Shown: piece by piece, positions 1 to 49,260 of the stretch
Layout: every line of letters starts with the position of its first letter
Numbering within the stretch: position 1 is the stretch's first letter
NCBI GenBank assembly: GCA_021817225.1
Contig: JAKAVR010000007.1
Coordinates: 1 to 49,260, forward strand
Direction of reading: 5' to 3'
Length of the DNA stretch: 49,260 nucleotides
DNA from: Thermoplasmata archaeon
GTDB lineage: Archaea; Thermoplasmatota; Thermoplasmata; Sysuiplasmatales; Sysuiplasmataceae
Translations under genes and position numbers: made by a program
The notes under the pieces: generated by a model
What the model saw: only the letters and a program-made list of their open reading frames with translations
Told to the model about the DNA's origin: nothing
Databases searched by the model: none

Positions 1-68
1 TTCATCTCCATGTATGCGGACGGGCGGCTGTCGTCCGTGTCTGATTTGTTCTTTTTCCTCGCTGCCAT
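1..68 (-). CDS. Partial hypothetical protein, N-terminus only
   Basis: An ATG at 68-66 on the minus strand opens a frame that runs off the left edge. The visible start reads MAARKKNKSDTDDSRPSAY, a lysine-rich, charged beginning. A TATA-like box (TTTATAT, about 92-98 on the minus strand) lies some 26 nt upstream of the ATG, the spacing expected for a leaderless archaeal gene, which is the main support for the call. Function cannot be judged from 22 residues. Confidence 0.5.
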   Translation of the reverse strand, partial: MAARKKNKSDTDDSRPSAYMEM

Positions 69-213
69 GCAAAGGGTATAACATTAACTAGATATAAATG
101 TAGCGGTATCAATACAAAGAGCTATAGAACCCATTACAGGCACGATCGACGGCTCAAAGGCAATCTGATACCCCTGCAATCGACTTCAGGCACCGGGTCG
201 TGGAGAAGGGCGC

Positions 214-360
214 TCAGGGACCGTTCTCTGCCGCAGGCGTGTCCTTATTCCTCCAGTCCTCGAGCCAGTGGACGCACCTGGGACAGCGCTTCGGCTTCCT
301 TGTGCTGAGTCTCGGTGTCCATTCGTAGCCGCAGTGCGTGCATTGCATTGTTCTGTTCAT
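214..360 (-). CDS. Small zinc-ribbon protein
   Basis: About 48 residues with two CxxC knuckles (CTHCGYEW and later CPRC) separated by a basic stretch, a rubredoxin-like zinc ribbon. Small proteins of this layout are common in archaea and often sit on plasmids and integrated elements; they are thought to bind DNA or act in protein complexes, but no specific function can be given. The start is uncertain: ATGs at 378, 360 and 348 are in frame, and the TATA-like box near 394-405 would favour 378 or 360. It diverges from the ribbon-helix-helix gene at 425 and shares its AT-rich promoter region. Confidence 0.6.
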   Translation of the reverse strand: MNRTMQCTHCGYEWTPRLSTRKPKRCPRCVHWLEDWRNKDTPAAENGP

Positions 361-393
361 CGACAACACTATCGACATCACTATTATTGACAG

Positions 394-406
394 CAATATA
401 TAAATA
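394..406. promoter_or_regulatory. Shared bidirectional TATA-like element
   Basis: The AT-only run around ATATATAAATAT reads as a TATA box on both strands. Its centre is about 24 nt before the ATG at 425 on the plus strand and about 22-40 nt before the candidate starts at 378 and 360 on the minus strand. It can therefore serve the divergent zinc-ribbon and ribbon-helix-helix genes, and the ribbon-helix-helix product is an obvious candidate regulator of it (inference). Confidence 0.5.
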
Positions 407-424
407 TTGATATAGCCAGACCGA

Positions 425-619
425 ATGTATCGATATCGCATGAGCAACGGCAACGGCTATCGTGAAAGAGGTTTCCATCAAGTCATGATCGACGGCCAGC
501 TCTACGAGCGTCTCAGGGTGCTCAAGAACGGCGACGTGGACAGCTTCGGCGATGTCATCAGGCGCTACCTTCCCGATGAGCGCATGCTTCTCAGATCACG
601 GGGGTTGAGCTTCAGATGA
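425..619 (+). CDS. Ribbon-helix-helix-like small protein
   Basis: 64 residues. The central part, VMIDGQLYERLRVLKN followed by SFGDVIRRYLP, resembles the strand-helix-helix of VapB/CopG-type regulators: a short hydrophobic strand, a helix containing LYERL, then an S-F-x-D-V-I-R-R-Y-L second helix. ATG 425 is placed as the start because it lies about 24 nt after the TATA-like run (leaderless); ATG 440 is an alternative. It heads a run of five closely packed genes and overlaps the next one by ATGA at 616-619. It is likely a transcriptional regulator of the element or an antitoxin-like protein; no toxin partner is recognised next to it. Confidence 0.6.
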   Translation: MYRYRMSNGNGYRERGFHQVMIDGQLYERLRVLKNGDVDSFGDVIRRYLPDERMLLRSRGLSFR

Positions 620-981
620 ATGAAACGGAAGTCCGGGGCGTCGGAGAGACGGAAGAGGAAGGAATCAGAACCGAAATAGCGACCGTCTACGTCAGCGAAG
701 TAGCATGCCTTCTCCACGCATACAAAGACGATGACGGCAGGGTTCATTTCAAGCCCGAATGCCCGACGAAGGCGGACGAGAAGCAGCTCAGGAGCATTCT
801 TACTGAGCTGTATCCCGAAGACGGCAATGTGGTCGTGGAGAAGGCGGAAATCACGCTGGAGGGTGTGAAATGTGAAGACGATGTTTGCAAGGCTCTTGGC
901 GAATTCGCAAAGGATGCGGCCGAGAGGCTCAGAAATGACCCTGAAAGCGAAAGAAAGGGGCGGTTCGGCAGGAATGAGTGA
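616..981 (+). CDS. Hypothetical acidic protein
   Basis: 121 residues, strongly acidic and rich in Glu and Lys, with three Cys (in VACLLHAY, PECPTK and KCEDDVC). I do not recognise a family. The start ATG overlaps the stop of the ribbon-helix-helix gene by 4 nt, so translation is probably coupled. The middle (SILTELYPEDGNVVVEKAEI) predicts alternating helix and strand and the C-terminal part is helical. It is followed with an 8-nt overlap by the next small gene. Coding status rests on the tight packing and the absence of a competing frame. Confidence 0.55.
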   Translation: MNETEVRGVGETEEEGIRTEIATVYVSEVACLLHAYKDDDGRVHFKPECPTKADEKQLRSILTELYPEDGNVVVEKAEITLEGVKCEDDVCKALGEFAKDAAERLRNDPESERKGRFGRNE

Positions 982-1150
982 GAACGAAACGGAGGTAAAA
1001 GGAATGAATGGAAATGCAACGGATGCAGACCCGAAGACTTGCCCGGTGAATGACAAGTGGCTGAGGAAGATGTACGAGATACTTCCGCCATACATCATTC
1101 GCAACAGCAAGCTTGCGGGATACCAGCACTGCTTTGAGAAGACAGAGTGA
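974..1150 (+). CDS. Hypothetical small protein
   Basis: 58 residues from ATG 974, which overlaps the preceding stop (979-981) by 8 nt; the frame is open further upstream but that part overlaps the previous gene out of frame. The N-terminus (MSENETEVKG) is similar in style to that of the previous gene (MNETEVRGVG), suggesting a duplicated leader or local duplication. The remainder, KWLRKMYEILPPYIIRNSK, predicts an amphipathic helix. No family recognised. Confidence 0.45.
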   Translation: MSENETEVKGMNGNATDADPKTCPVNDKWLRKMYEILPPYIIRNSKLAGYQHCFEKTE

Positions 1151-1650
1151 GCAACAGTGCCAAACCATTTACCCTTCATGGGGATTGCATTGAGGTGAAT
1201 GTTTTGCAGGACACGCAATCGGAGAAGAAAGATGGCGGAGACAGGGGAGGCCGTGAGGTGTGGTGGAAGGAATTCATCCCGAACGATAAGCCGAAGGGCA
1301 GGGACGGCAAGGAAGAAGCGCAGACTGCCATGCAGTGCTTCCTGGCAGGCGCGCAGATTGGCGACGATCTCGACAGCATCGCAGTCGCTGTCCACGAGTT
1401 CTACGAGAACGAGTTCAACCGTGTCGGCACGGCTGCCGAACAGTGGCTCAAGCTGCTTGTGAGCAGGGTCGACGGCCTCATAGACAACGCGAAGGCATGC
1501 GGCGCAGGCGAAAACATAGTGCACAGGTGGGAGGATTTCGTCGACTCTTACCGGAGCGGCGACTGGCAGGGGATGGAGAGCACGATAAACACCATGGGCA
1601 GGATCATGAACAGAGAGTTCACAGGAAAGGTGACCTTCAGTTACGGATAG
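1147..1650 (+). CDS. Hypothetical helical protein
   Basis: 167 residues starting at GTG 1147, which overlaps the preceding TGA by 3 nt, so it is probably translationally coupled. The N-terminal third is basic and low in structure; from about residue 55 onward the sequence is a series of amphipathic helices (AMQCFLAGAQIGDDLDSIAV, then FYENEFNRVGTAAEQWLKLL and others). I do not recognise the family. Its position in the packed run 425-2021 suggests a shared role with its neighbours. Confidence 0.5.
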   Translation: MSNSAKPFTLHGDCIEVNVLQDTQSEKKDGGDRGGREVWWKEFIPNDKPKGRDGKEEAQTAMQCFLAGAQIGDDLDSIAVAVHEFYENEFNRVGTAAEQWLKLLVSRVDGLIDNAKACGAGENIVHRWEDFVDSYRSGDWQGMESTINTMGRIMNREFTGKVTFSYG

Positions 1651-1658
1651 GTGCTCAA

Positions 1659-2021
1659 ATGGCGGAAGAGAGAGAGTTCTATGCAAGTGAGAGGCTCTCA
1701 TGCATGCTTGCAGGCATGTTCATCCAGGACAATCTCGGCGACATAGAGTCGATGCTCAGGGATGTGCAGGAGTGGCCGCTGGGTTCACAGTCCGAGCTCA
1801 ACCTCAGGCTTCCCATCGAAATGCGATTTGAAACGCTGGAATCTGCATTGAAGGCAAAGGAAGGCGTCTGCCAGATACCTGTCAGTCTGAAGGCGGAGAT
1901 TGGCAGGGCTGCGGAACTGTTTGGCAGCACCAACTACAGGGATGCAGAAGAGCTGCTGCAGACAATCCAGGGCAGCTACCAGCACCTTGCAGAGGACGGT
2001 CTGAGGAAAAACAGAGTGTGA
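1659..2021 (+). CDS. Hypothetical helical protein
   Basis: 120 residues from ATG 1659, eight nt after the preceding stop. The frame is open far upstream but that part is antisense to real coding logic, so the internal ATG is chosen. The product is helix-rich (MLAGMFIQDNLGDIESMLRD, AEIGRAAELFGSTNYRDAEE) and ends with a basic tail. It looks organised like the preceding protein, with small helical repeats, and the two could be distant paralogues. Its last 46 nt overlap the end of the convergent membrane-protein gene. Confidence 0.5.
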   Translation: MAEEREFYASERLSCMLAGMFIQDNLGDIESMLRDVQEWPLGSQSELNLRLPIEMRFETLESALKAKEGVCQIPVSLKAEIGRAAELFGSTNYRDAEELLQTIQGSYQHLAEDGLRKNRV

Positions 2022-2308
2022 AACAACTCAGCGAGTGGCTCATTTCCGCGAAGCTCTCTGGCGTAAGCAGTTGCCTGCATTGAACTTGTTTGCGTTCCCA
2101 TGCCTGATTGTCCGTGTGGCATGGGGAACATAGACGCTATCCATGGCAGCAGCGCGACGAACAGGACAGCTGCCATCACGCACATCATCTTCTTTCCCTT
2201 CGCCGATGATGCTCCAGACTCCTTCCTACGCAAGAGCGCCACGCCTATGATTACGGCAATAACTGTCAGGAGCAGGCCTGAGATGACAAGAACCACTCCA
2301 AACGACAT
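1976..2308 (-). CDS. Small two-TM membrane protein
   Basis: 110 residues from ATG 2308 (an in-frame TTG at 2362 would add 18). Two hydrophobic segments are clear: residues about 3-24 (VVLVISGLLLTVIAVIIGVA) and about 42-60 (CVMAAVLFVALLPWIASMF), separated by a short basic loop, consistent with a hairpin in the membrane. The C-terminal part is soluble with no recognisable motif. It converges on and overlaps the hypothetical gene ending at 2021. Small membrane proteins of this kind are typical cargo of archaeal integrated elements; no function is assigned. Confidence 0.5.
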   Translation of the reverse strand: MSFGVVLVISGLLLTVIAVIIGVALLRRKESGASSAKGKKMMCVMAAVLFVALLPWIASMFPMPHGQSGMGTQTSSMQATAYARELRGNEPLAELFHTLFFLRPSSARCW

Positions 2309-2381
2309 GCGCCACAGCACGAACTCATCCCTGTGCAGGTCAGGGCAAAGCACATATTTCAACTTCGTTATATCCTATTCC

Positions 2382-2564
2382 ATGGCCGATTATGTGCAGT
2401 GCCCCTTCTGCGACAGGCTTTTCAAAGAGCCGCAGGCACGAAGGCCGTCTGGAGAGACGCCGCTCGGGGAGCATGTGATGAGCGCTCATCACAAGGTCAG
2501 GGTCAGGAAGGGGAGCAACTACAGGTGGATGGATGAGGGCGAAGTGCGGAAGAGACTCGCATGA
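2382..2564 (+). CDS. Small C2H2-type zinc-finger protein
   Basis: 60 residues. The start reads MADYVQCPFCDRLF and is followed by EHVMSAHHKV, giving C-x2-C ... H-x4-H, a single classical zinc finger, then a basic tail. ATG 2382 is chosen because a TATA-like CATATTTC sits at 2352-2359, about 26 nt upstream (leaderless). Single C2H2 fingers are frequent in archaeal viruses and plasmids, where they act as DNA-binding regulators. It is adjacent to the integrase, tail to tail. Confidence 0.65.
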   Translation: MADYVQCPFCDRLFKEPQARRPSGETPLGEHVMSAHHKVRVRKGSNYRWMDEGEVRKRLA

Positions 2565-2580: not shown

Positions 2581-3936
2581 TCAAAAGGGTAGTTTCATGA
2601 CTGCATTGCCATCAGGCAGAGAGGCGACAAATTCGTAGCCCTGATTTATGAACTCTGCCACGCTTGAAACAGGCACGACCTTCTGCCTCGAGCCGTTTCC
2701 GTTCATCATGCCGGCGAGCTTCCTCCTCACCGCCTCCTGGACATCCTCGTTGCTCAGCGAGCTCATATCCATTCTTGCAAGTTCCTCTTTGCTGTAGCCT
2801 GCAAGCATCATGAGCTGCTCCTTGAGCGCATTCTTCAGCTTCTCCTCGCTCAGGACATCGGAAGTCTTCTTCCTTGTCTGAAGGAGGTCGGATGCCTTCT
2901 CGTACGCCTTCCGCATGTCATCGACGACGCTGTCGGGCAGCCTGTTCTTCCTGACGGTGTATTCACTCTCAATGTCGCCTACATGCCCCATCCAGAACTG
3001 CTGGTATGCATGGCTGACCATGCCCTTGCTCTCTGCGAGCATGAGGTTCGTGTCGAAGTATGAGCGCCAGACATACGGGCGCCAGGGAAGACCGACCGCC
3101 CTCATCGCGCGCCTGATGTCGTCACCTATCTTCACCGTCCTTATGAAAGGTGACATGTCCCTCGCATTGTGCGCCTTCATCAGTGAAGATGACTTCCTGA
3201 ACTGAAGCATGCTTGTCGCTACGATGCCTGTTTCAGGCGCGATCTTCTCGCCGTCCGCAATCCTGCGCTCGAGGTGCTGCCTGATTATTTCACAACCTTC
3301 CTCGCACATGAATGTGAAGTATCTGCGCCTCGACTTGCTCAGCTCATCCCTCACGGCGACGAGCGTCGGCATTCTCGCAAAAGAGACTTTGCCATCTTTG
3401 ATTTCAATTTCAGGCAGGTCCTTTATCCTCAGTCCGTCGAGACCGAGATAATCGCCAAGAACCTCCAGTCTCAATCCTGAGAAGGCAATGAGCGCAATTG
3501 CGGCCCTCGTTCTCAGGGAGGTGGTGTCCGAATAGAGCACTTTACCGAACTCCTCCTGTGTCGGTATGCGCTCGTTCTCAAGCGTCGGCCTCTTCCCCGG
3601 ATTTCTGACCTTTATCTTCCTTTCTATAGGCTTCCTGTTCCATGCGGCCCAGCTTCTCACCGCCTTCATGTACGACTCAATGTATCCTGGAGAATATTTC
3701 CCTGACTTCTCAATGCCGTCTATGAAGTCCTGCGCAACCTCTTCCATCCTCCTCTTTGACAGTTTGACAAACTGCTGCGGCGTCATGCCCACAGACGTGC
3801 AGAACCTTCCCAGGGAACGGAGGTAGACATCGGCGACAATGAGGCTGCCCTTCGAATTGTTGTCGTACCAGCGCGAAAGGTTGGGATCCTTCGTCAATTC
3901 CCTGTACTGCTCCTTTCGGTATTCCTTGAAAGACAT
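2581..3936 (-). CDS. Tyrosine-recombinase integrase, archaeal type
   Basis: 451 residues from ATG 3936; a TATA-like CTTATATTT about 26 nt upstream supports this leaderless start over an upstream in-frame ATG at 4008. The N-terminal half carries a SAM-like core-binding domain (PNLSRWYDNNSKGS onward). The catalytic domain shows the first Arg in AFSGLRLEVLGDYLG, a second Arg in PYVWRSYFDTN, the His in FWMGHVGDIESEY and the nucleophile Tyr in the same segment. The C-terminus (VSSVAEFINQGYEFVASLPDG) is a small domain often appended to archaeal element integrases. It catalyses site-specific integration or excision, usually at tRNA genes. No tRNA gene or att repeat is visible beside it here, so the target is unknown. 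The gene appears intact. Confidence 0.9.
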   Translation of the reverse strand: MSFKEYRKEQYRELTKDPNLSRWYDNNSKGSLIVADVYLRSLGRFCTSVGMTPQQFVKLSKRRMEEVAQDFIDGIEKSGKYSPGYIESYMKAVRSWAAWNRKPIERKIKVRNPGKRPTLENERIPTQEEFGKVLYSDTTSLRTRAAIALIAFSGLRLEVLGDYLGLDGLRIKDLPEIEIKDGKVSFARMPTLVAVRDELSKSRRRYFTFMCEEGCEIIRQHLERRIADGEKIAPETGIVATSMLQFRKSSSLMKAHNARDMSPFIRTVKIGDDIRRAMRAVGLPWRPYVWRSYFDTNLMLAESKGMVSHAYQQFWMGHVGDIESEYTVRKNRLPDSVVDDMRKAYEKASDLLQTRKKTSDVLSEEKLKNALKEQLMMLAGYSKEELARMDMSSLSNEDVQEAVRRKLAGMMNGNGSRQKVVPVSSVAEFINQGYEFVASLPDGNAVMKLPF

Positions 3937-4232
3937 GAAAAGATCATGTTTTCGCCAAAATATAAGCCTATCCACACCGTAAAACGGAACAAATCCGGAC
4001 GGACCCATTTCTTGGTCCCTGTTGCCCCTCTGTGGCTAATGCACTATACTGTTTATCTGCAAAAATTGGACCAGATTGCTCTTCCACGATGACCAGTGGC
4101 AATACACAAAGAGGCATCTATAGGGACAAATGAATATCAACAAAGTAAATCGTCTCACCATGGTATTGAAACCGAATTGTGTGTATTCTTGCGGCGGAGG
4201 CCTGAAGTCGTCTCCATATGGAAGACAGGAGG
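3937..4232. other. Intergenic stretch with no recognised gene
   Basis: Between the integrase start and the end of the methyltransferase pseudogene I see only the integrase promoter (TATA-like 3957-3966, minus strand). The open frames here are short, overlap the pseudogene in other frames and have no recognisable product. Confidence 0.5.
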
Positions 4233-43787: not shown

Positions 43788-43860
43788 GGGCCGGTAGATC
43801 AGTTGGAAGATCGCTACCTTGGCATGGTAGAGGCCACGGGTTCAAATCCCGCCCGGTCCA
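43788..43860 (+). tRNA. tRNA-Ala (GGC)
   Basis: Cloverleaf: acceptor GGGCCGG/CCGGTCC with the alanine identity pair G3:U70, D-arm GATC/GATC, anticodon stem CTACC/GGTAG with loop TTGGCAT (anticodon GGC at 43821-43823), T-loop TTCAAAT with stem CGGG/CCCG (the outermost T-stem pair is A:C), discriminator A, no encoded CCA. No intron. A TATA-like GTTTTATG lies about 30 nt upstream. Its 3' 20 nt (43841-43860) are repeated downstream. Confidence 0.93.
43841..43860 (+). repeat. tRNA-Ala 3' end, reference copy of the att-like repeat
   Basis: TTCAAATCCCGCCCGGTCCA, the T-loop to the 3' end of tRNA-Ala. It recurs exactly at 46836-46855 and with changes at 45489-45508 and 48796-48815. tRNA 3' ends are the standard targets of archaeal tyrosine integrases, so this is the presumed attachment core. 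Confidence 0.8.
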
Positions 43861-43916: not shown

Positions 43917-45359
43917 TTACTTTTTCATCCTTTCCAATGACTTCTCTATTTCCCCAAGATCCATGAGCAATGTATCCTTGTCTGTCGCATCGGCATTTCC
44001 TGAGAATCCGGATTTCGAAAATACTGCATAGGCAATCCTGCTGTTCGGATGCAGCTTGATCACCGCTTTCGATTTTTCTTTCAGCTCAGATATGATACCG
44101 ACACTGGTGCGCCTGCTGGACCACTTGCACTCGGCAAAGAACAGCTCATCCCTTTCTGCCGAATATGCGACAATATCAATCTCTTCCATGTCTTTGCCGG
44201 GACCTTTTGCCCTGTTCCTTCCCCACCATCTTGAGGCACTGTCGAAAGCTCTTCCAATAATGCCATCAACAACCAGCTCCCGCATCAACTGCTCAAACTG
44301 TTCTCCTGCAAACGTCCCGAAGTCTTCCTTTATCCTTTCAAGGACATCATCAGATCGTGATATCTCTATTTCACTCCTATTGGGCAGGACATATCTTAAC
44401 CAGAATTTGAGATAAGGATCAGTAACGCGATACAGCCTTCTTTTGAATTTCTCGGGTGCACCAAAAGGTATCTCAGGAGAAACGAGCTCAAGGGACATCA
44501 TAACATCAATGTACTTGGACACCATGCTCTTATCAAGTCCTGTGTAGTCACTTATTTCGCCGAGTGTGTTGCTGCCTTTGGCTATTGATTTCAATATGAG
44601 CATGTAGTTCCTTGGCTCCCTCAACTCTGTCCTGAGGAGAAATTCAGCCTCCTCGTAGAGCGGAGCCCCCTTAGAAAGGATTTTCTCCAATACGTTTTTC
44701 CAGAAGGTTAGTTTCGGATCGAACTTCAGCAGGTAATCCGGCACTCCCCCCAATACGAAGTAAGTTCTGCAAAGATCTTCGAATCCTGACGGTATGATCT
44801 CTTTGATGTGACGAAACTTCAGAGGATTAAGTCGCAACTGTCCAGTTCTCCTGCCGTACAACGGGCTCTTGTATGACAGTATCTCATTTTCCATCATGCT
44901 GATTGACGATCCCGACAGAATCAGCATGACCTCCGCTTCGCCTGGGAGCGTATCGTATATCTTCTGAAACACTGACGGGATAGATCTGTTTGCCTCTATC
45001 AGGTACGGAAATTCATCAAATGCAATGACTAATTTTGACTCTCTGAATCTTTCCTGGAACGCTCTGTTGGCGGACAGCATTGAAAAGAAAGAGAACCAGT
45101 CGGAGTACAGTCCGCCGCGTATCCCAGGGTCCCGGAGAAACGTAGCAATTATCTCTTGGAAGCTCCTTATATTATCTCTGTCACCTTCATTGGTTGCAAG
45201 AAAGTAAAGTCCTTTCCCGTCTGTGAATTTGCGTATCAGCTCTGTTTTGCCAACACGTCTTCTTCCGTAGATTACAAAAAGACGCTTGCCTCTTTCGGCA
45301 TAGTCTTTCTTCAGTATATCGAGTTCGTCCTTTCTGTCTGCGAAAATTCGTTGAGACAT
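43917..45359 (-). CDS. Archaeal ATPase (ATPase_2) with DUF234/nuclease-like C-terminus
   Basis: 480 residues. Walker A YGRRRVGKTEL (K38), Walker B LVIAFDEFPYL near residue 113, sensor-like LILSGSSISMMENEIL, then a winged-helix part (GEISDYTGLDKSMVSKYIDV) and a C-terminal DUF234 domain with EIDIVAYSAERDELFFAECK, which has the D-x(n)-E-x-K spacing of PD-(D/E)xK nucleases. The family is abundant on archaeal mobile elements; its job is not established. It looks intact. A TATA-like GATTTAAGTT lies about 29 nt upstream. Confidence 0.88.
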   Translation of the reverse strand: MSQRIFADRKDELDILKKDYAERGKRLFVIYGRRRVGKTELIRKFTDGKGLYFLATNEGDRDNIRSFQEIIATFLRDPGIRGGLYSDWFSFFSMLSANRAFQERFRESKLVIAFDEFPYLIEANRSIPSVFQKIYDTLPGEAEVMLILSGSSISMMENEILSYKSPLYGRRTGQLRLNPLKFRHIKEIIPSGFEDLCRTYFVLGGVPDYLLKFDPKLTFWKNVLEKILSKGAPLYEEAEFLLRTELREPRNYMLILKSIAKGSNTLGEISDYTGLDKSMVSKYIDVMMSLELVSPEIPFGAPEKFKRRLYRVTDPYLKFWLRYVLPNRSEIEISRSDDVLERIKEDFGTFAGEQFEQLMRELVVDGIIGRAFDSASRWWGRNRAKGPGKDMEEIDIVAYSAERDELFFAECKWSSRRTSVGIISELKEKSKAVIKLHPNSRIAYAVFSKSGFSGNADATDKDTLLMDLGEIEKSLERMKK

Positions 45360-45488
45360 AAGTATTATACTTTATACTCAACCAACTTAAATCTTTTTCT
45401 GCCGGGATGATGTTGATGAAGCAGACTCATGGATGCGGAGAGTCCTGCATTAGCACTCATGCCACCCTAGCGCCCTGCTGGTTGTTAG

Positions 45489-45508
45489 TGCAAATCCAGC
45501 CCGGTCCA
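45489..45508 (+). repeat. tRNA-Ala 3' repeat copy, between ATPase and toxin-like module
   Basis: TGCAAATCCAGCCCGGTCCA differs from the tRNA copy at two positions (T to G, C to A). The core CCCGGTCCA is intact. Confidence 0.7.
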
Positions 45509-45514
45509 TTCTGC

Positions 45515-46195
45515 CTAATCTGCCAATGAAACAACCGCGTTGACGTTCTTCGCATAAGTACTTTCATCTACAAGTCCGTAAACTCCTTGCAACCCATTCC
45601 TGAATTCCTTTGAACTTATCTTGCTTTTCAACCTGTTGAACCTCTCCTTGAAGTCACACATAGATTCCACCTCCGCCTTGATCCATTTTCTATCTCTTAC
45701 CATCGGTGCCATCATGAATAAATCCCTCATGTCAGTAGACCTGCAGCTAATCATCTTGATTACGAACAGTGCGTCAAGATTGATTATTCTGACTTTCATG
45801 TCTTCGGCGATGGTCTTACCCTTCAGCGAATGTATTTCGGAATTCCTGAAAACCCAACCAGCAGGTATCCTCACATTCGTTTGCCTGTCAAAGATATCCT
45901 TTACCAGAATTTCGAAACTTACCCTGATGAAACCGGAGATCTTCTTCTCGTATCTCGCGAAGTCTATAGAGTCAGTTTCGGCGTTCGAGGTCTTCCTGTA
46001 ATATCCAAGACCCAACAGGACCTTTTCCACTTTAGCCAATTCCGTCTTATCCATGACGACTATGTCGCAGTCGACCGAGAACCTGGGCAGCGTATATGCG
46101 TTCACCGCATATCCCCCTATAACGACAAATTCCAGACCATTTAGCTTCTTGAGCGTTTCGAAGACCTCCTTTTCCCTAATCTGAAGCACTTCCAT
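45515..46195 (-). CDS. Nucleotidyltransferase-fold protein, toxin-like
   Basis: 226 residues. N-terminal nucleotidyltransferase core FVVIGGYAVNAYTLPRFSVD with G27-G28 and D42-x-D44 (the DxD metal site), followed by helices and strands that include LDALFVIKMISCRSTDMRDL, a common helix pair in the AbiEii/MNT-like group. Such enzymes nucleotidylate tRNA or proteins and serve as toxins in type IV or VII toxin-antitoxin and abortive-infection systems. Overlaps the partner gene by 20 nt. Toxicity is inferred from context only. Confidence 0.75.
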   Translation of the reverse strand: MEVLQIREKEVFETLKKLNGLEFVVIGGYAVNAYTLPRFSVDCDIVVMDKTELAKVEKVLLGLGYYRKTSNAETDSIDFARYEKKISGFIRVSFEILVKDIFDRQTNVRIPAGWVFRNSEIHSLKGKTIAEDMKVRIINLDALFVIKMISCRSTDMRDLFMMAPMVRDRKWIKAEVESMCDFKERFNRLKSKISSKEFRNGLQGVYGLVDESTYAKNVNAVVSLAD

Positions 46196-46778
46196 ACTTC
46201 CGCCTCATGTAATCATACGCATAGTAGTAGATCTCGTTGGATTTGGCTATCCTTTGGGCTTTGGACAAGCTTACAACGCTGAAGCCATCTTTCTGCACGG
46301 GTTTCAAGTGGCTTACCGGCCTTATAATCACGTACTCCCCTATTGCGGCGCCGTGGTCGATGTAGGACGGTATATCATTCTTGCTGAAAAATGACTTCCA
46401 GTAATTCAAATCCTTCCTTAAAACATTCACGAAGTAGGGGGACTTCTCTATCCCCCTCTGCACATATGAAAAGTCGCTCCATATCTCAATGGCTGACAAT
46501 CCAGTAAAGGCGTAAGGTTTCTCTGCGGTCTTCATCGTGCCGGGAACTTTAAAGTCCAATAAGCCCTTGACCGCCTTTTCAGGACTAACGCATACATAAG
46601 AATTGCGCGATTTTTTCTGTATCCAGCCGGCCCTCAACAATAAGGAGAAAATCTTCTTCTTCATACTCTGTCCGACTATCCAATCTAAGTCCATCTGGCC
46701 GAACTGTTCCTCGGTCCCGTGCCTGGTGAAGAATAATGCGTACGCCTTCAATCCGTACTGTGGTATCTCTTTCGTCAT
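46176..46778 (-). CDS. Winged-helix partner of the nucleotidyltransferase (AbiEi-like)
   Basis: About 200 residues. N-terminal winged helix (YALFFTRHGTEEQFGQMDLD, then MKKKIFSLLLRAGWIQKKSR) followed by an AbiEi-like domain (YAFTGLSAIEIWSDFSYVQR). ATG 46778 is preferred over 46811 because a perfect inverted repeat and a weak TATA-like sequence lie directly upstream of it. It overlaps and probably represses its own operon, like AbiEi antitoxins; that is inference. The overlap with the nucleotidyltransferase gene shows coupling. Confidence 0.68.
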   Translation of the reverse strand: MTKEIPQYGLKAYALFFTRHGTEEQFGQMDLDWIVGQSMKKKIFSLLLRAGWIQKKSRNSYVCVSPEKAVKGLLDFKVPGTMKTAEKPYAFTGLSAIEIWSDFSYVQRGIEKSPYFVNVLRKDLNYWKSFFSKNDIPSYIDHGAAIGEYVIIRPVSHLKPVQKDGFSVVSLSKAQRIAKSNEIYYYAYDYMRRKYGSASD

Positions 46779-46798
46779 AGTTACCTTATGGGTAACTA
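46778..46798 (-). promoter_or_regulatory. Perfect 8-bp inverted repeat at the start codon, probable operator
   Basis: TAGTTACC and GGTAACTA, perfect reverse complements separated by 5 nt, directly abut or overlap ATG 46778. A dimeric regulator bound here would block initiation of the winged-helix/nucleotidyltransferase operon. Confidence 0.6.
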
Positions 46799-46835
46799 GG
46801 TATTTGTGCATTTCCTTGACTCACAAGTGGCTCTC

Positions 46836-46855
46836 TTCAAATCCCGCCCGGTCCA
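46836..46855 (+). repeat. Exact 20-nt copy of the tRNA-Ala 3' end
   Basis: Identical over all 20 nt to 43841-43860, about 3 kb downstream of the tRNA. Only the 3' part is duplicated; the preceding bases do not form a tRNA. This is the hallmark of an attR site left by integration into tRNA-Ala. Confidence 0.85.
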
Positions 46856-47027
46856 TTGCTTATCGCATTTTATTATGTTTTCATAAAGGGACGGGGACCG
46901 GTCTCCCTGCTAGTTATTTGTTTTATTGTTGTTTTGGGATATATGGGATTTGCAGGAATATTGATGAGAATAATTTGTTTCACAATTTTCATCCGAAAAC
47001 CCAAACTCAGTACTTGGCCGTTAGCGT

Positions 47028-47924
47028 TTATCTGACCACATCCAACAATCTCAGTGCTTCAGTTTGCGGAGGTCCCCTGTTTTCCACTATGTGACTCTCC
47101 CCGTAGATCTTGTTTAAGGAGCACACAATCATCAGCAGCAGGTGCCTGAAACGTATGAGCTCATCCAACACAACAGGACTGCCTCTATGCCTCCCGGAGG
47201 CATAGAGCATCTCTGCAATGACCCACTCATTCTCTATGAGCACAGCCACGAACATGTTCAGCTGCCTGGCTGCTGTTTCCCTGCTCGATGTCCTCGCCCT
47301 TGCCATTTCGGCGATTCTGCAGCTCGACTCTATTCCGAACCTCCTGCGGTACAGCTGCATTGTCTGTTTTGGCGATGTGCATACGCGGCAGACTGTGAAG
47401 TAGTAGCTCCTGATCCTCCCGTGCTCCCTCCTCTTCGCCGCTTGCACCCTCAGGTCAATGCTCTCCACACCCGATTTCAGTGCGTGCACTGTTGTGAATG
47501 AATGCCTGCCGCTGTTCCAGCAGGCAGCCATCTTCCTGCCGGCCCGCACCGGCATGATGAATGGCATCGCCTGCTTCCTGAGCGAATGAGTGATCAACCG
47601 CTGGAGGCTCCCCTGTTCCGGCGCCTCAACAACCCCTGCCATCTGCCTGCGTGAATGGCCGTTCCCTGCGTGTCTCCCGGCAGATGTCAGGCTTCCGGCG
47701 GTCGCGGAGGCCTTCATCACGAACCTTGCCGTGTCCCTGACGGTGCTGTCCGGAAATGCCAGCAGCAGCGCCACTGCCAGGACATGCATGAGCACATCCT
47801 CGACACGCCTCCTTATGTCCGAGGGTTTAAGAACCCTCGGAACAGAGTTTTTATTATTACTGCACACGATTGCTGTATCGCGATTCTTACGAGTCGCCCC
47901 ATCCCATCCTTTCATGTCTATCAA
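47028..47924 (-). pseudogene. DDE transposase, probably degenerate
   Basis: 298 residues. The C-terminal half is a recognisable DDE transposase: MPFIMPVRAGRKMAACW, IRSYYFTVCRVC, then LYRRRFGIESSCRIAEMARA (the Y-x-x-R-F-x-I-E motif with the catalytic Glu) and ARTSSRETAARQLN. The N-terminal half is short; where relatives have a catalytic Asp in a DRGF-like stretch there is APEQGSLQRLITH, and the first Asp region seems lost. Relatives are about 350-400 residues, so an internal deletion or frameshift is likely. No clear terminal inverted repeats were found by eye. Confidence 0.7.
47818..47841. repeat. Perfect 10-bp inverted repeat inside the transposase gene
   Basis: TCCGAGGGTT and AACCCTCGGA separated by TAAG. 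It lies near the 5' end of the transposase frame and would form a strong hairpin in either strand. Confidence 0.7.
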
Positions 47925-48012
47925 ACAAGAAATGTGGGATGGGTCTCATACAATTGTCCGGAAATTAAATTCCAACAATGCCAGCGTACCAATCATGACC
48001 AAGTACTGAAAT

Positions 48013-48612
48013 TCAAATAAGGAAAGGAATTATTCTCTTAGTCTTGGCCATATATCGCCTGTAGTAGTCTCCCAATTCTTCAACGAGGAACTTCTCTTCC
48101 TTCAGAATTCTGTGCCCATAAGCAAGACTGAAGGAGATTACGGCTACCAGGACAGAAGCCCAACTTTGAAACATCAGAGCAATGCCAATCTGTATGAGAA
48201 GGATTCCCGTATAGGATGGATGTCTCACATAATGATACGGGCCTACGTCAATGACTTTCTGATCTTTTTGAATGCCCACAACATGAGAAAAATATTTTCC
48301 CAGCACTGCAACTGCCCACTGCCTGATTCCCACACCCGAAAGGAAGATAATAATACCTGCAAAGAACGCATCTCCTGGAAGAATAAACAGCTTAAAGGAT
48401 GCTGAAACCAAAGTGAAAACCAAGAGTGCTTCCCAACCAAGCCAGGTAGTGAAATTCAGGCCATGTTTCCGTTCCTGCACTTCGCTACCATCGCGTCTCC
48501 TTCCGGGAATTATGATCCCGCCAACGATCTCTGTTATAATCCAAAACGAGATGGTGGCCAGAAATACTGACAGATATAAGTTAAGACCATAAATCAAGGG
48601 AAAGGATGACAT
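48013..48612 (-). CDS. Isoprenylcysteine carboxyl methyltransferase-like membrane protein
   Basis: 199 residues from ATG 48612; a TATA-like TTATTTAT at 48640-48647 is about 31 nt upstream, while the upstream ATG 48663 would precede the promoter. Four to five membrane segments and the family signature VGPYHYVRHPSYTGILLIQI with the C-terminal EEKFLVEELGDYYRRYMAKT and KRIIPF. Homologues use SAM to methylate isoprenylcysteine in eukaryotes; prokaryotic members have mostly unknown lipid-like or protein substrates. Lies in the same repeat-bounded segment as the transposase. Confidence 0.85.
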   Translation of the reverse strand: MSSFPLIYGLNLYLSVFLATISFWIITEIVGGIIIPGRRRDGSEVQERKHGLNFTTWLGWEALLVFTLVSASFKLFILPGDAFFAGIIIFLSGVGIRQWAVAVLGKYFSHVVGIQKDQKVIDVGPYHYVRHPSYTGILLIQIGIALMFQSWASVLVAVISFSLAYGHRILKEEKFLVEELGDYYRRYMAKTKRIIPFLI

Positions 48613-48795
48613 AAATAGTTCAATTTCGTAATGCGTGAGATAAATAAGTATATTCTCCACCATTGGTCAAAAAAGTGCAACTCAATTAATTTCTCAACCG
48701 AAAATGTATGGAACCGATGGGCTATTTGCCGGATTCCTAACATATGAGCTGAGAACGAATGAAGATCTCTCTGGCTGGATTCGCTTAGAACATTA

Positions 48796-48815
48796 ATCAA
48801 ATCTCGACCGGTCCA
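48796..48815 (+). repeat. Divergent copy of the tRNA-Ala 3' repeat
   Basis: ATCAAATCTCGACCGGTCCA, 17 of 20 positions equal to the tRNA copy. It lies upstream of the ICMT gene and closes the third module. Confidence 0.65.
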
Positions 48816-48860
48816 TTTCTGGACAGGGCAACATGCAATACGATGTGTTGGTTTTCATTC

Positions 48861-49193
48861 TCATGTCCATTCGCTTTGAATATTATTTCCTACGAAATAC
48901 ATGGCGACTGCAGAGATTATGAGCACGAAGACCGCATCCATAGCCATCCCTATTGACCAACCAAAGTATTGCCCAGACATAAGGAACAGCATTCCATTTA
49001 TTATTGCATCAATTACGAAGGCAAGAATTAGAATCGCTAATATTCTTAATGAAAGAAAATGAGTTTTAAAAGAAAGAGCAAGAAAAACCAGCGAAGTGAT
49101 TAGAATGGCGATGCCGTTGATGATGTGCGCCAGTACTAAACCAAAGTGACCTCCAAAATATATTATTCTTCTTTGGATTGAGAATGCATTATT
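48861..49193 (-). pseudogene. Membrane-protein ORF without a usable start codon
   Basis: A frame open for 111 codons on the minus strand, ending at TGA 48863-48861. It encodes about four membrane segments (GGHFGLVLAHIINGIAILIT, LRILAILILAFVIDAIINGM, AMDAVFVLIISAVAMYFVGN) with a clear membrane-protein look. The frame opens after a TGA at 49196-49194 and no ATG, GTG or TTG occurs before the first membrane segment; an ATG in the neighbouring frame (start MHSQSKEE) suggests a one-base loss near 49170. Either a recent frameshift or a non-standard start. AT-rich compared with the rest of the window. Confidence 0.5.
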
Positions 49194-49260
49194 TCACGCT
49201 TATTTCAGCGCGCTCTTATTGATGGCAGTGGCAGCGCCGAGTGCATCATTGCATTCCTTA

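Follow-up and report, generated by a model that had tools for sequence, protein, structure and literature searches.

Gene content and layout

Five open reading frames (ORFs) were confirmed on the plus strand of the window, the whole stretch of 49,260 bases analyzed here, at positions 425-619, 616-981, 974-1150, 1147-1650, and 1659-2021. The window is one contig (C98) of a 1.97-Mb genome in 99 contigs. The first ORF encodes a putative ribbon-helix-helix (RHH) protein, and the four genes behind it are designated g2 to g5. The stop codon of the RHH gene is joined to the start of g2 by an ATGA overlap. The sequence-only reading, made before any database search, had given overlaps of 4, 8, and 3 nt followed by an 8-nt gap; the first two overlaps and the gap were reproduced, while the third overlap is 4 nt with the stop codons included. 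The unit exceeds these five genes, as it comprises a divergent zinc-ribbon gene, the RHH-g2-g3-g4-g5 run, a finger gene, and a convergent integrase gene. Its features are given below together with the evidence for each; C65 is the contig of the same genome that carries another full-length copy.

214-360, minus strand: divergent small zinc-ribbon gene, 48 aa, 5′ of the operon; also in C65
399-408, plus strand: TATA-box-like TATAAATATT, from the sequence
425-619, plus strand: RHH gene, 64 aa from 425 or 59 aa if from 440; subthreshold PF02697 match and dN/dS
428-435, plus strand: palindrome TATCGATA, candidate operator; shared with C65, function putative
616-981, plus strand: g2, 121 aa, without a recognized family; ATGA overlap and dN/dS
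991-996, plus strand: Shine-Dalgarno-like GGAGGT ahead of the ATG at 1004, from the sequence; GGAGG also in C65
1004-1150, plus strand: g3, 48 aa from 1004 (58 aa from the earlier start at 974); conservation between C98 and C65
1030-1119, plus strand: hairpin A, a predicted imperfect 90-nt hairpin inside g3; shuffles, synonymous randomization, and the C65 fold
1126-1160, plus strand: hairpin B, enclosing the overlap of the g3 stop and the g4 GTG; predicted in C98 and C65, with a three-copy consensus
1147-1650, plus strand: g4, 167 aa, with an N-terminal arm and a predicted four-helix region; three genomic copies, core dN/dS, and model
1659-2021, plus strand: g5, 120 aa, a predicted four-helix bundle; dN/dS and model
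2382-2564, plus strand: small C2H2-like zinc-finger gene; C65 counterpart, likewise just before the integrase gene
2581-4008, minus strand: convergent gene for a predicted tyrosine integrase, 475 aa; PHROG 1 match, and NCBIfam XerA_Arch match below the cut-off

The start of g3 is more likely to be 1004 than 974, because GGAGGT (991-996) lies seven bases upstream of the former and the ATG at 974 is missing from C65, which retains both GGAGG and the ATG equivalent to 1004. With this start, the g2/g3 junction would therefore be a 22-nt gap with no overlap. The GTG of g4 has no clear Shine-Dalgarno sequence before it, and AGGTGCTC precedes the ATG of g5 in all three copies of the run. The C65 counterpart of the zinc-ribbon gene (L006 11153-11305, plus strand) conserves the CxxCGY..CPxC pattern; Pfam zinc-ribbon matches were weak and all under the cut-off. 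Similarly, the finger gene, with 47 of 60 residues identical between C98 and C65, matched Pfam fingers only under the cut-off. An antisense ORF of 378 aa (window 565-1701, minus strand) spans g2 to g4 and is probably a by-product of codon use, as the antisense ORFs of C65 are shorter.

In the region preceding the RHH gene, TATAAATA was found at 399 in C98 and was also present upstream of the C65 RHH gene, where TATCGATA likewise follows the TATA box, at a spacing of 16 nt versus 29 nt. The palindrome has a single exact copy in the 49,260-base window. The occurrence of both elements in two copies is consistent with an RHH operator near the transcription start, an indication that is weak by itself.

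The RHH protein matched PF02697 (VAPB_antitox) across the fold region with an E value of 3.1e-4 and 21.9 bits, and the C65 protein matched with 21.8 bits, against a cut-off of 27.9. For g2 to g5, profile searches of Pfam, PHROGs, NCBIfam, and PADLOC gave nothing convincing, in agreement with the earlier statement that these products resemble nothing familiar; the best matches short of this were those of g2 to a PHROG (E 0.016) and of g4 to an NCBIfam family (E 0.044), and the PADLOC search returned no match for any of the five products. Sequence searches of solved structures with g5, g4, g2, the RHH protein, and the integrase were equally without a convincing result. The model of g5 (mean pLDDT 82, pTM 0.74) has helices at residues 9-36, 44-66, 75-89, and 93-106 and, as modeled, is a generic four-helix bundle. 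No Foldseek match to it was obtained at an E value of ≤0.001 in the PDB or among viral models, and its VIA-align Z scores of up to 12.2, a range common for helical bundles, were mostly to designed bundles and receptor domains. The model of g4 was poor (mean pLDDT 52), with helices at residues 52-89, 95-117, 122-137, and 140-161.

The sequence-only reading had proposed duplications for both g4/g5 and g2/g3. In the case of g4 and g5, BLASTP gave an E value of 0.010 over 30 aa; equally good scores were obtained with 10 of 1,000 shuffles for the g4 core, 18 of 1,000 for whole g4, and 137 of 2,000 for the global score, and the models have four helices in the same order, that of g4 being the poor one. 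The hhalign probability was only 5%. The two are probably paralogous four-helix bundles, although the sequence evidence is weak. The likeness of g2 to g3 did not hold up: the local score was matched by 40 of 1,000 shuffles and came from a stretch of nine residues, and the C65 g2 begins differently. In addition, the g3 stretch, which includes the ribosome-binding site, sits upstream of the start at 1004. The duplication is therefore unsupported. A joint function of the five products, also suggested earlier, is plausible.

Genomic copies, selection, and the g3 hairpins

Two further copies of the run were found in the same genome, one full length on C65 and one truncated on C96. The C65 copy has 81% DNA identity to C98 over 449-2014 and the same gene order, and g4 and g5 are each 78% identical between the two. 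In C65, g2 is frameshifted by two extra bases that put its two parts in different frames, and an internal ATG still opens an ORF of 94 aa. In the C96 copy, the contig end falls inside g3, and g5 is cut short. Two features were seen only in C65. A cysteine-rich sixth ORF of 48 aa (L006 9565-9422, minus strand) overlaps the g5 stop, is absent from C98, and has its cysteines in a B-box-like arrangement (PF25287, E 2.8e-4, below the cut-off). A coiled-coil gene (L006 8665-9012, minus strand) with a 53-nt direct repeat lies between g5 and the finger gene.

Selection was estimated by the Nei-Gojobori method between C98 and C65, with 3, 0, 0, 6, and 0 codons dropped for the RHH gene and g2 to g5, respectively. 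The dN/dS values were 0.075 for the RHH gene from 440 (56 codons), 0.214 for g2 downstream of the C65 frameshift (87 codons), 0.104 for g3 from 1004 (48 codons), 0.206 for g4 from 1195 (145 codons; 0.114 for the core), and 0.124 for g5 (120 codons), with dS between the copies reaching about 1.2. For the 17-codon stretch of g2 that precedes the frameshift, the value was 1.14, with very few changes to draw on. The last 41 residues of g3 were identical at 40 positions, and from 1031 onwards, nonsynonymous changes numbered 1 in 94 sites and synonymous changes 4 in 23. The run therefore goes beyond chance, since copies in the same genome keep the gene order with dN/dS values of 0.08 to 0.21, and it is a real protein-coding operon under purifying selection. 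This bears out the earlier view of a coupled run behind an RHH gene, the RHH match itself being subthreshold. A lack of protein-level conservation in every relative had been named as the finding that would overturn that view; it does not apply, because copies exist elsewhere in the genome, and the conservation is confined to these copies, none that was convincing having been found in the other genomes searched.

The region 1020-1160 is predicted to fold at -47.9 kcal/mol (z -3.9; 0 of 200 dinucleotide shuffles as stable), and its antisense strand is nearly as strong (z -3.7). In a shuffle scan with 110-nt windows, 205 of them in the element, the minimum for the element was located at 1021 (z -4.23). 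A single host window out of 200 fell below -3.5, and at -4.27 it was slightly more extreme than g3, so the g3 region is not unique by the plain shuffle scan alone. When codons were redrawn with the protein fixed, the g3 window, with a z of -4.72 and 0 of 150, ranked lowest among 181 windows; the minimum among 123 host windows was -3.19, two of the host windows listed also being at 0 of 150. A finer codon-redraw run over 123 nt with two codon tables gave 3 and 1 of 3,000 for C98 (z -3.6 and -3.7) and 10 and 6 of 3,000 for C65 (z -3.0), and permutation of codons only over 123 nt gave 0 and 5 of 1,500; the window was picked after scanning, and all of these randomization fractions are not corrected p values. 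The stability of the g3 hairpin exceeds what the protein sequence explains.

Hairpin A also folds in C65, with part of the outer stem broken, and its inner stem is identical in C96. The three-copy consensus of hairpin B contains three one-sided changes that keep pairing and one pair broken in one copy, and no two-sided compensatory changes in the hairpins were seen among the three copies. Compared with g5, g3 showed reduced synonymous change (p 0.0016, from rounded counts and uncorrected), as it did against the g4 core (p 0.043, 0.0048, and 0.034 for three copy pairs that are not independent, uncorrected), while the difference from g2 was not significant (p 0.27). Gene conversion between the copies could alternatively account for the low synonymous divergence in g3. 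Rfam contained no match of note. With a covariance model built from the three copies, only those three matched well across 23 sequence sources; a fourth match, at an E value of 0.93, was taken as chance. The g3 hairpin may help to control the making of the later genes.

The integrative element and searches for relatives

The arrangement of zinc ribbon, operon, finger, and integrase genes is common to C98 and C65. The integrases of the two contigs are only 45% identical, whereas g4 and g5 are each at 78%; the operon has therefore been combined with two integrase lineages. The window integrase matched PHROG 1 (integrase) at an E value of 4e-5 and NCBIfam XerA_Arch at 3e-5, with 23.7 bits against a cut-off of 220, and had no Pfam integrase match.

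On C65, the integrase ORF starts ∼34 bases beyond a tRNA gene whose match is 96 nt against a model of 71 positions, which suggests an intron. The homology of C65 to a sister genome, G002 (93%), ends at the 3′ end of this tRNA. In G002, the tRNA without an element is followed by a HAD-type gene remnant, a kinase-type gene, and an MFS gene; in the genome studied here, HAD, kinase, and MFS genes lie on C96, past a copy of the tRNA end (L007 4215-4234, 2 mismatches in 20). Given an attL at the tRNA 3′ end, an attR copy on C96, and the uninterrupted G002 site, C65 and C96 appear to be the two ends of one tRNA-gene insertion, provided that the contigs are sound. The insertion would be at least 15 kb (C65 10025-19245 plus C96 4235-10161). 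An integrase gene by a tRNA 3′ end, a far att repeat, and an empty site in a relative are the classical signs of tRNA targeting, and all are present in the C65/C96 element. Its cargo includes a heavy-metal P-type ATPase (L006 12386-14884) and an HxlR regulator (L006 11709-12074), possibly for metal resistance. On the C96 side (L007 4235-10161), a serine resolvase, an MT-A70 methylase, a 796-aa protein without a family, and a MazE/AbrB-type protein (below the cut-off) all adjoin the truncated cluster copy. The window's own element runs off the contig at its left end, and homology to G002 begins only at 4196; no att site was found for this element and no tRNA up to 4008.

Two other regions of the genome bear traces of mobility. 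Contig C36, which carries an L18e-type ribosomal protein, contains a third integrase of the same family (L031 2711-4012, minus strand) with two in-frame stops, near two ORFs, one antisense and presumably tRNA-like, the other short and presumably HicA-like; it was read as an older, decayed element. The L18e-type protein and the apparent intron of the target tRNA are the grounds for regarding the host as an archaeon, presumably of the Thermoplasmata. In the window, the G+C content falls to 0.45 to 0.50 at 44000-49260, after a tRNA-Ala at 43788, and this drop, together with ORFs that are presumably ATPase-like, nucleotidyltransferase-like, and transposase-like, suggests another mobile or defense-type region.

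Relatives of the operon were sought at several depths. A g4 search of 100 relatives, own genome included, was positive in 1, the own genome alone. Among 300 genomes of the class (own included), 17 matched a g4 profile at an E value of ≤1 and 11 matched a joined g2+g3+g5 profile, as part of which alone g3 was sought, with none convincing outside the own genome in either case. The best outside match to each profile was taken as chance, that to the g4 profile being in G121 (E 3.5e-4, 62 positions, two internal stops) and that to the joined profile in G062 (E 3.2e-4, spanning a join). Scans of viral contigs with g4, g2, and g5, of genome contigs with g4 and g5, of plasmids with g4, and of phages with the DNA of 600-2030 yielded no relatives, at a reach of close relatives only, as the contig scans begin from short peptide patterns and may skip near records. 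Integrase relatives were found in 87 of the 300 class genomes at an E value of ≤1e-10 and in none of the viral contigs, plasmids, or phages. Of 11 related integrase loci retrieved, 8 in other genomes were viewed as ORF lists covering parts of each; these bore other cargo, including a Prim-Pol gene, and no g2-g5 operon. Relatives of the finger gene were present in G004 (E 1e-30), G007 (3e-19), and G235 (2e-12), where the neighborhoods differ and lack the cluster, and none was seen in the viral contigs. A joined finger/zinc-ribbon profile matched 63 of 300 genomes at an E value of ≤0.01; most of the other matches listed lay within its zinc-ribbon part and were regarded as generic.

Possible function and relation to known systems

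The reading tentatively preferred, with a probability of roughly 0.4, is that of an accessory operon, autorepressed by its RHH protein and carried by an integrative element, whose coupled g2-g5 products would act on the host in establishment or counter-defense. This last role, proposed by analogy, is the least certain part. By binding the palindrome next to the TATA box of its own gene, the RHH protein would hold down expression of the operon in the integrated state, as the RHH repressors of archaeal viruses do. On entry or induction, coupled translation would yield g2 to g5 at a fixed ratio. Because no clear ribosome-binding site precedes g4 and hairpin B encloses its start, translation of g4 would depend on ribosomes completing g3, which would also melt hairpin A. 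Least surely, the lineage-specific g2-g5 products might be accessory proteins acting on the host, g4 and g5 being paralogous four-helix subunits. Cas1 matches above the cut-off occur at two loci of the host, so counter-defense is possible; no CRISPR arrays were seen in the two Cas1 regions, and comparison of window positions 1-2400 with the own genome at an E value of ≤0.001 gave no further match resembling a spacer. In favor of this reading are the copies, the purifying selection, the gene order common to two elements with dissimilar integrases, the tRNA insertion, the shared promoter elements, the hairpins, and the reduced synonymous change in g3. Against this reading, no product has a recognizable activity or relative, and the role is assigned by analogy; the palindrome is one 8-mer at differing spacings, and the RHH match is below the Pfam cut-off; the limits of the hairpin evidence described above count against it as well; and the copies are not all intact, given the g2 frameshift in C65 and the g5 truncation in C96.

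A rather unlikely alternative gives the operon a role in the element's own core biology, be it replication, copy control, packaging, or partition; g4 and g5 would then be helical subunits of a structural or nucleoprotein kind, and the hairpin in g3 would be a site of replication or transfer. The operon is indeed common to two elements with different integrases, its helical-bundle proteins are paired, the hairpin is also stable with DNA energies (z -2.9; 2 of 200 shuffles), and the C96 remnant adjoins the resolvase, the methylase, and the large protein without a family. However, no replication initiator, ATPase, or coat family was recognized in the operon, g5 had no Foldseek match at an E value of ≤0.001 in the PDB or among viral models, and the eight related integrase loci bear other cargo.

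A toxin-antitoxin or addiction module that retains the element in the genome, with the RHH protein as antitoxin and g2 or another product as toxin, is unlikely. As in archaeal VapBC systems, a VAPB_antitox-type RHH gene (subthreshold, E 3e-4) overlaps the next gene by 4 nt, and the full g2 frame was lost in C65, as a toxin might be. In contrast to VapBC, neither a PIN toxin nor any other toxin family was recognized in g2-g5 with Pfam, NCBIfam, or PADLOC, and four genes, not one, follow downstream; moreover, the tail of the RHH protein past the fold is short, and g2 is still constrained after the frameshift. Also doubtful is an account in which g3 is a dual element, a short leader-like ORF whose hairpin A would act jointly with hairpin B at the g4 start to gate g4/g5 translation on ribosome passage. 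A real gate would be a case of RNA-level control within an archaeal mobile-element operon, a switch in which RHH repression and coupling at the RNA level together govern orphan host-acting proteins.

It is quite improbable that the g3 region is chiefly a regulatory RNA or DNA structure with an incidental 48-aa ORF, an idea suggested by a hairpin beyond coding need and suppressed synonymous change; the frame is uninterrupted in C98, in C65, and in the available part of C96, nonsynonymous change is lower still, a clear Shine-Dalgarno sequence precedes 1004, and Rfam offered nothing of note. Spurious ORFs or a functionless, decaying remnant, to which the C65 frameshift and C96 truncation might point, are hardly credible, being contradicted by the low dN/dS over all five genes at the dS reached.

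RHH-headed operons of small orphan genes are a likely place for undiscovered counter-defense or establishment proteins of archaeal mobile elements. The repeat copies, selection tests, mapped tRNA insertion, and uninterrupted site in a relative make this operon testable.

Such an operon can be compared with several known systems. In the sections of one study drawn on here, archaeal viruses carry short early genes of orphan type that are predicted to be anti-defense genes, RHH domains being present in some of them (PMC11065993). The present operon resembles such sets with Aca-like regulators in that short lineage-specific genes lie beside a DNA-binding regulator, and RHH domains are found among those sets; the Acr/Aca surroundings described in those sections are mostly single genes with strong promoters, whereas a closely packed operon in an integrative element is found here, and no Acr similarity was seen in the operon products. 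The integrase classes used here follow PMC8371274; with the classical (type II) tyrosine-integrase elements that archaea carry at tRNA genes, the C65/C96 element shares an intact integrase gene by the tRNA 3′ end and a far att repeat, and differs in that the integrase is above no curated cut-off and the cargo is without known relatives. Finally, the archaeal RHH autorepressors F55, SvtR, and AvtR are documented in the portions of PMC9608457 and PMC5569661 consulted. The candidate operator here is one 8-bp palindrome, in contrast to the tandem ATAGATAG repeats of F55; no sequence relation to the three repressors is shown, and the RHH gene here heads the same operon. Like the operons of SSV1 F55, SIRV1 SvtR, and AFV6 AvtR, this one combines a small, putative RHH protein, a site resembling an operator near the TATA box of that protein's gene, and small orphan genes, and with SSV1 it additionally shares the integrated state and a predicted tyrosine integrase.
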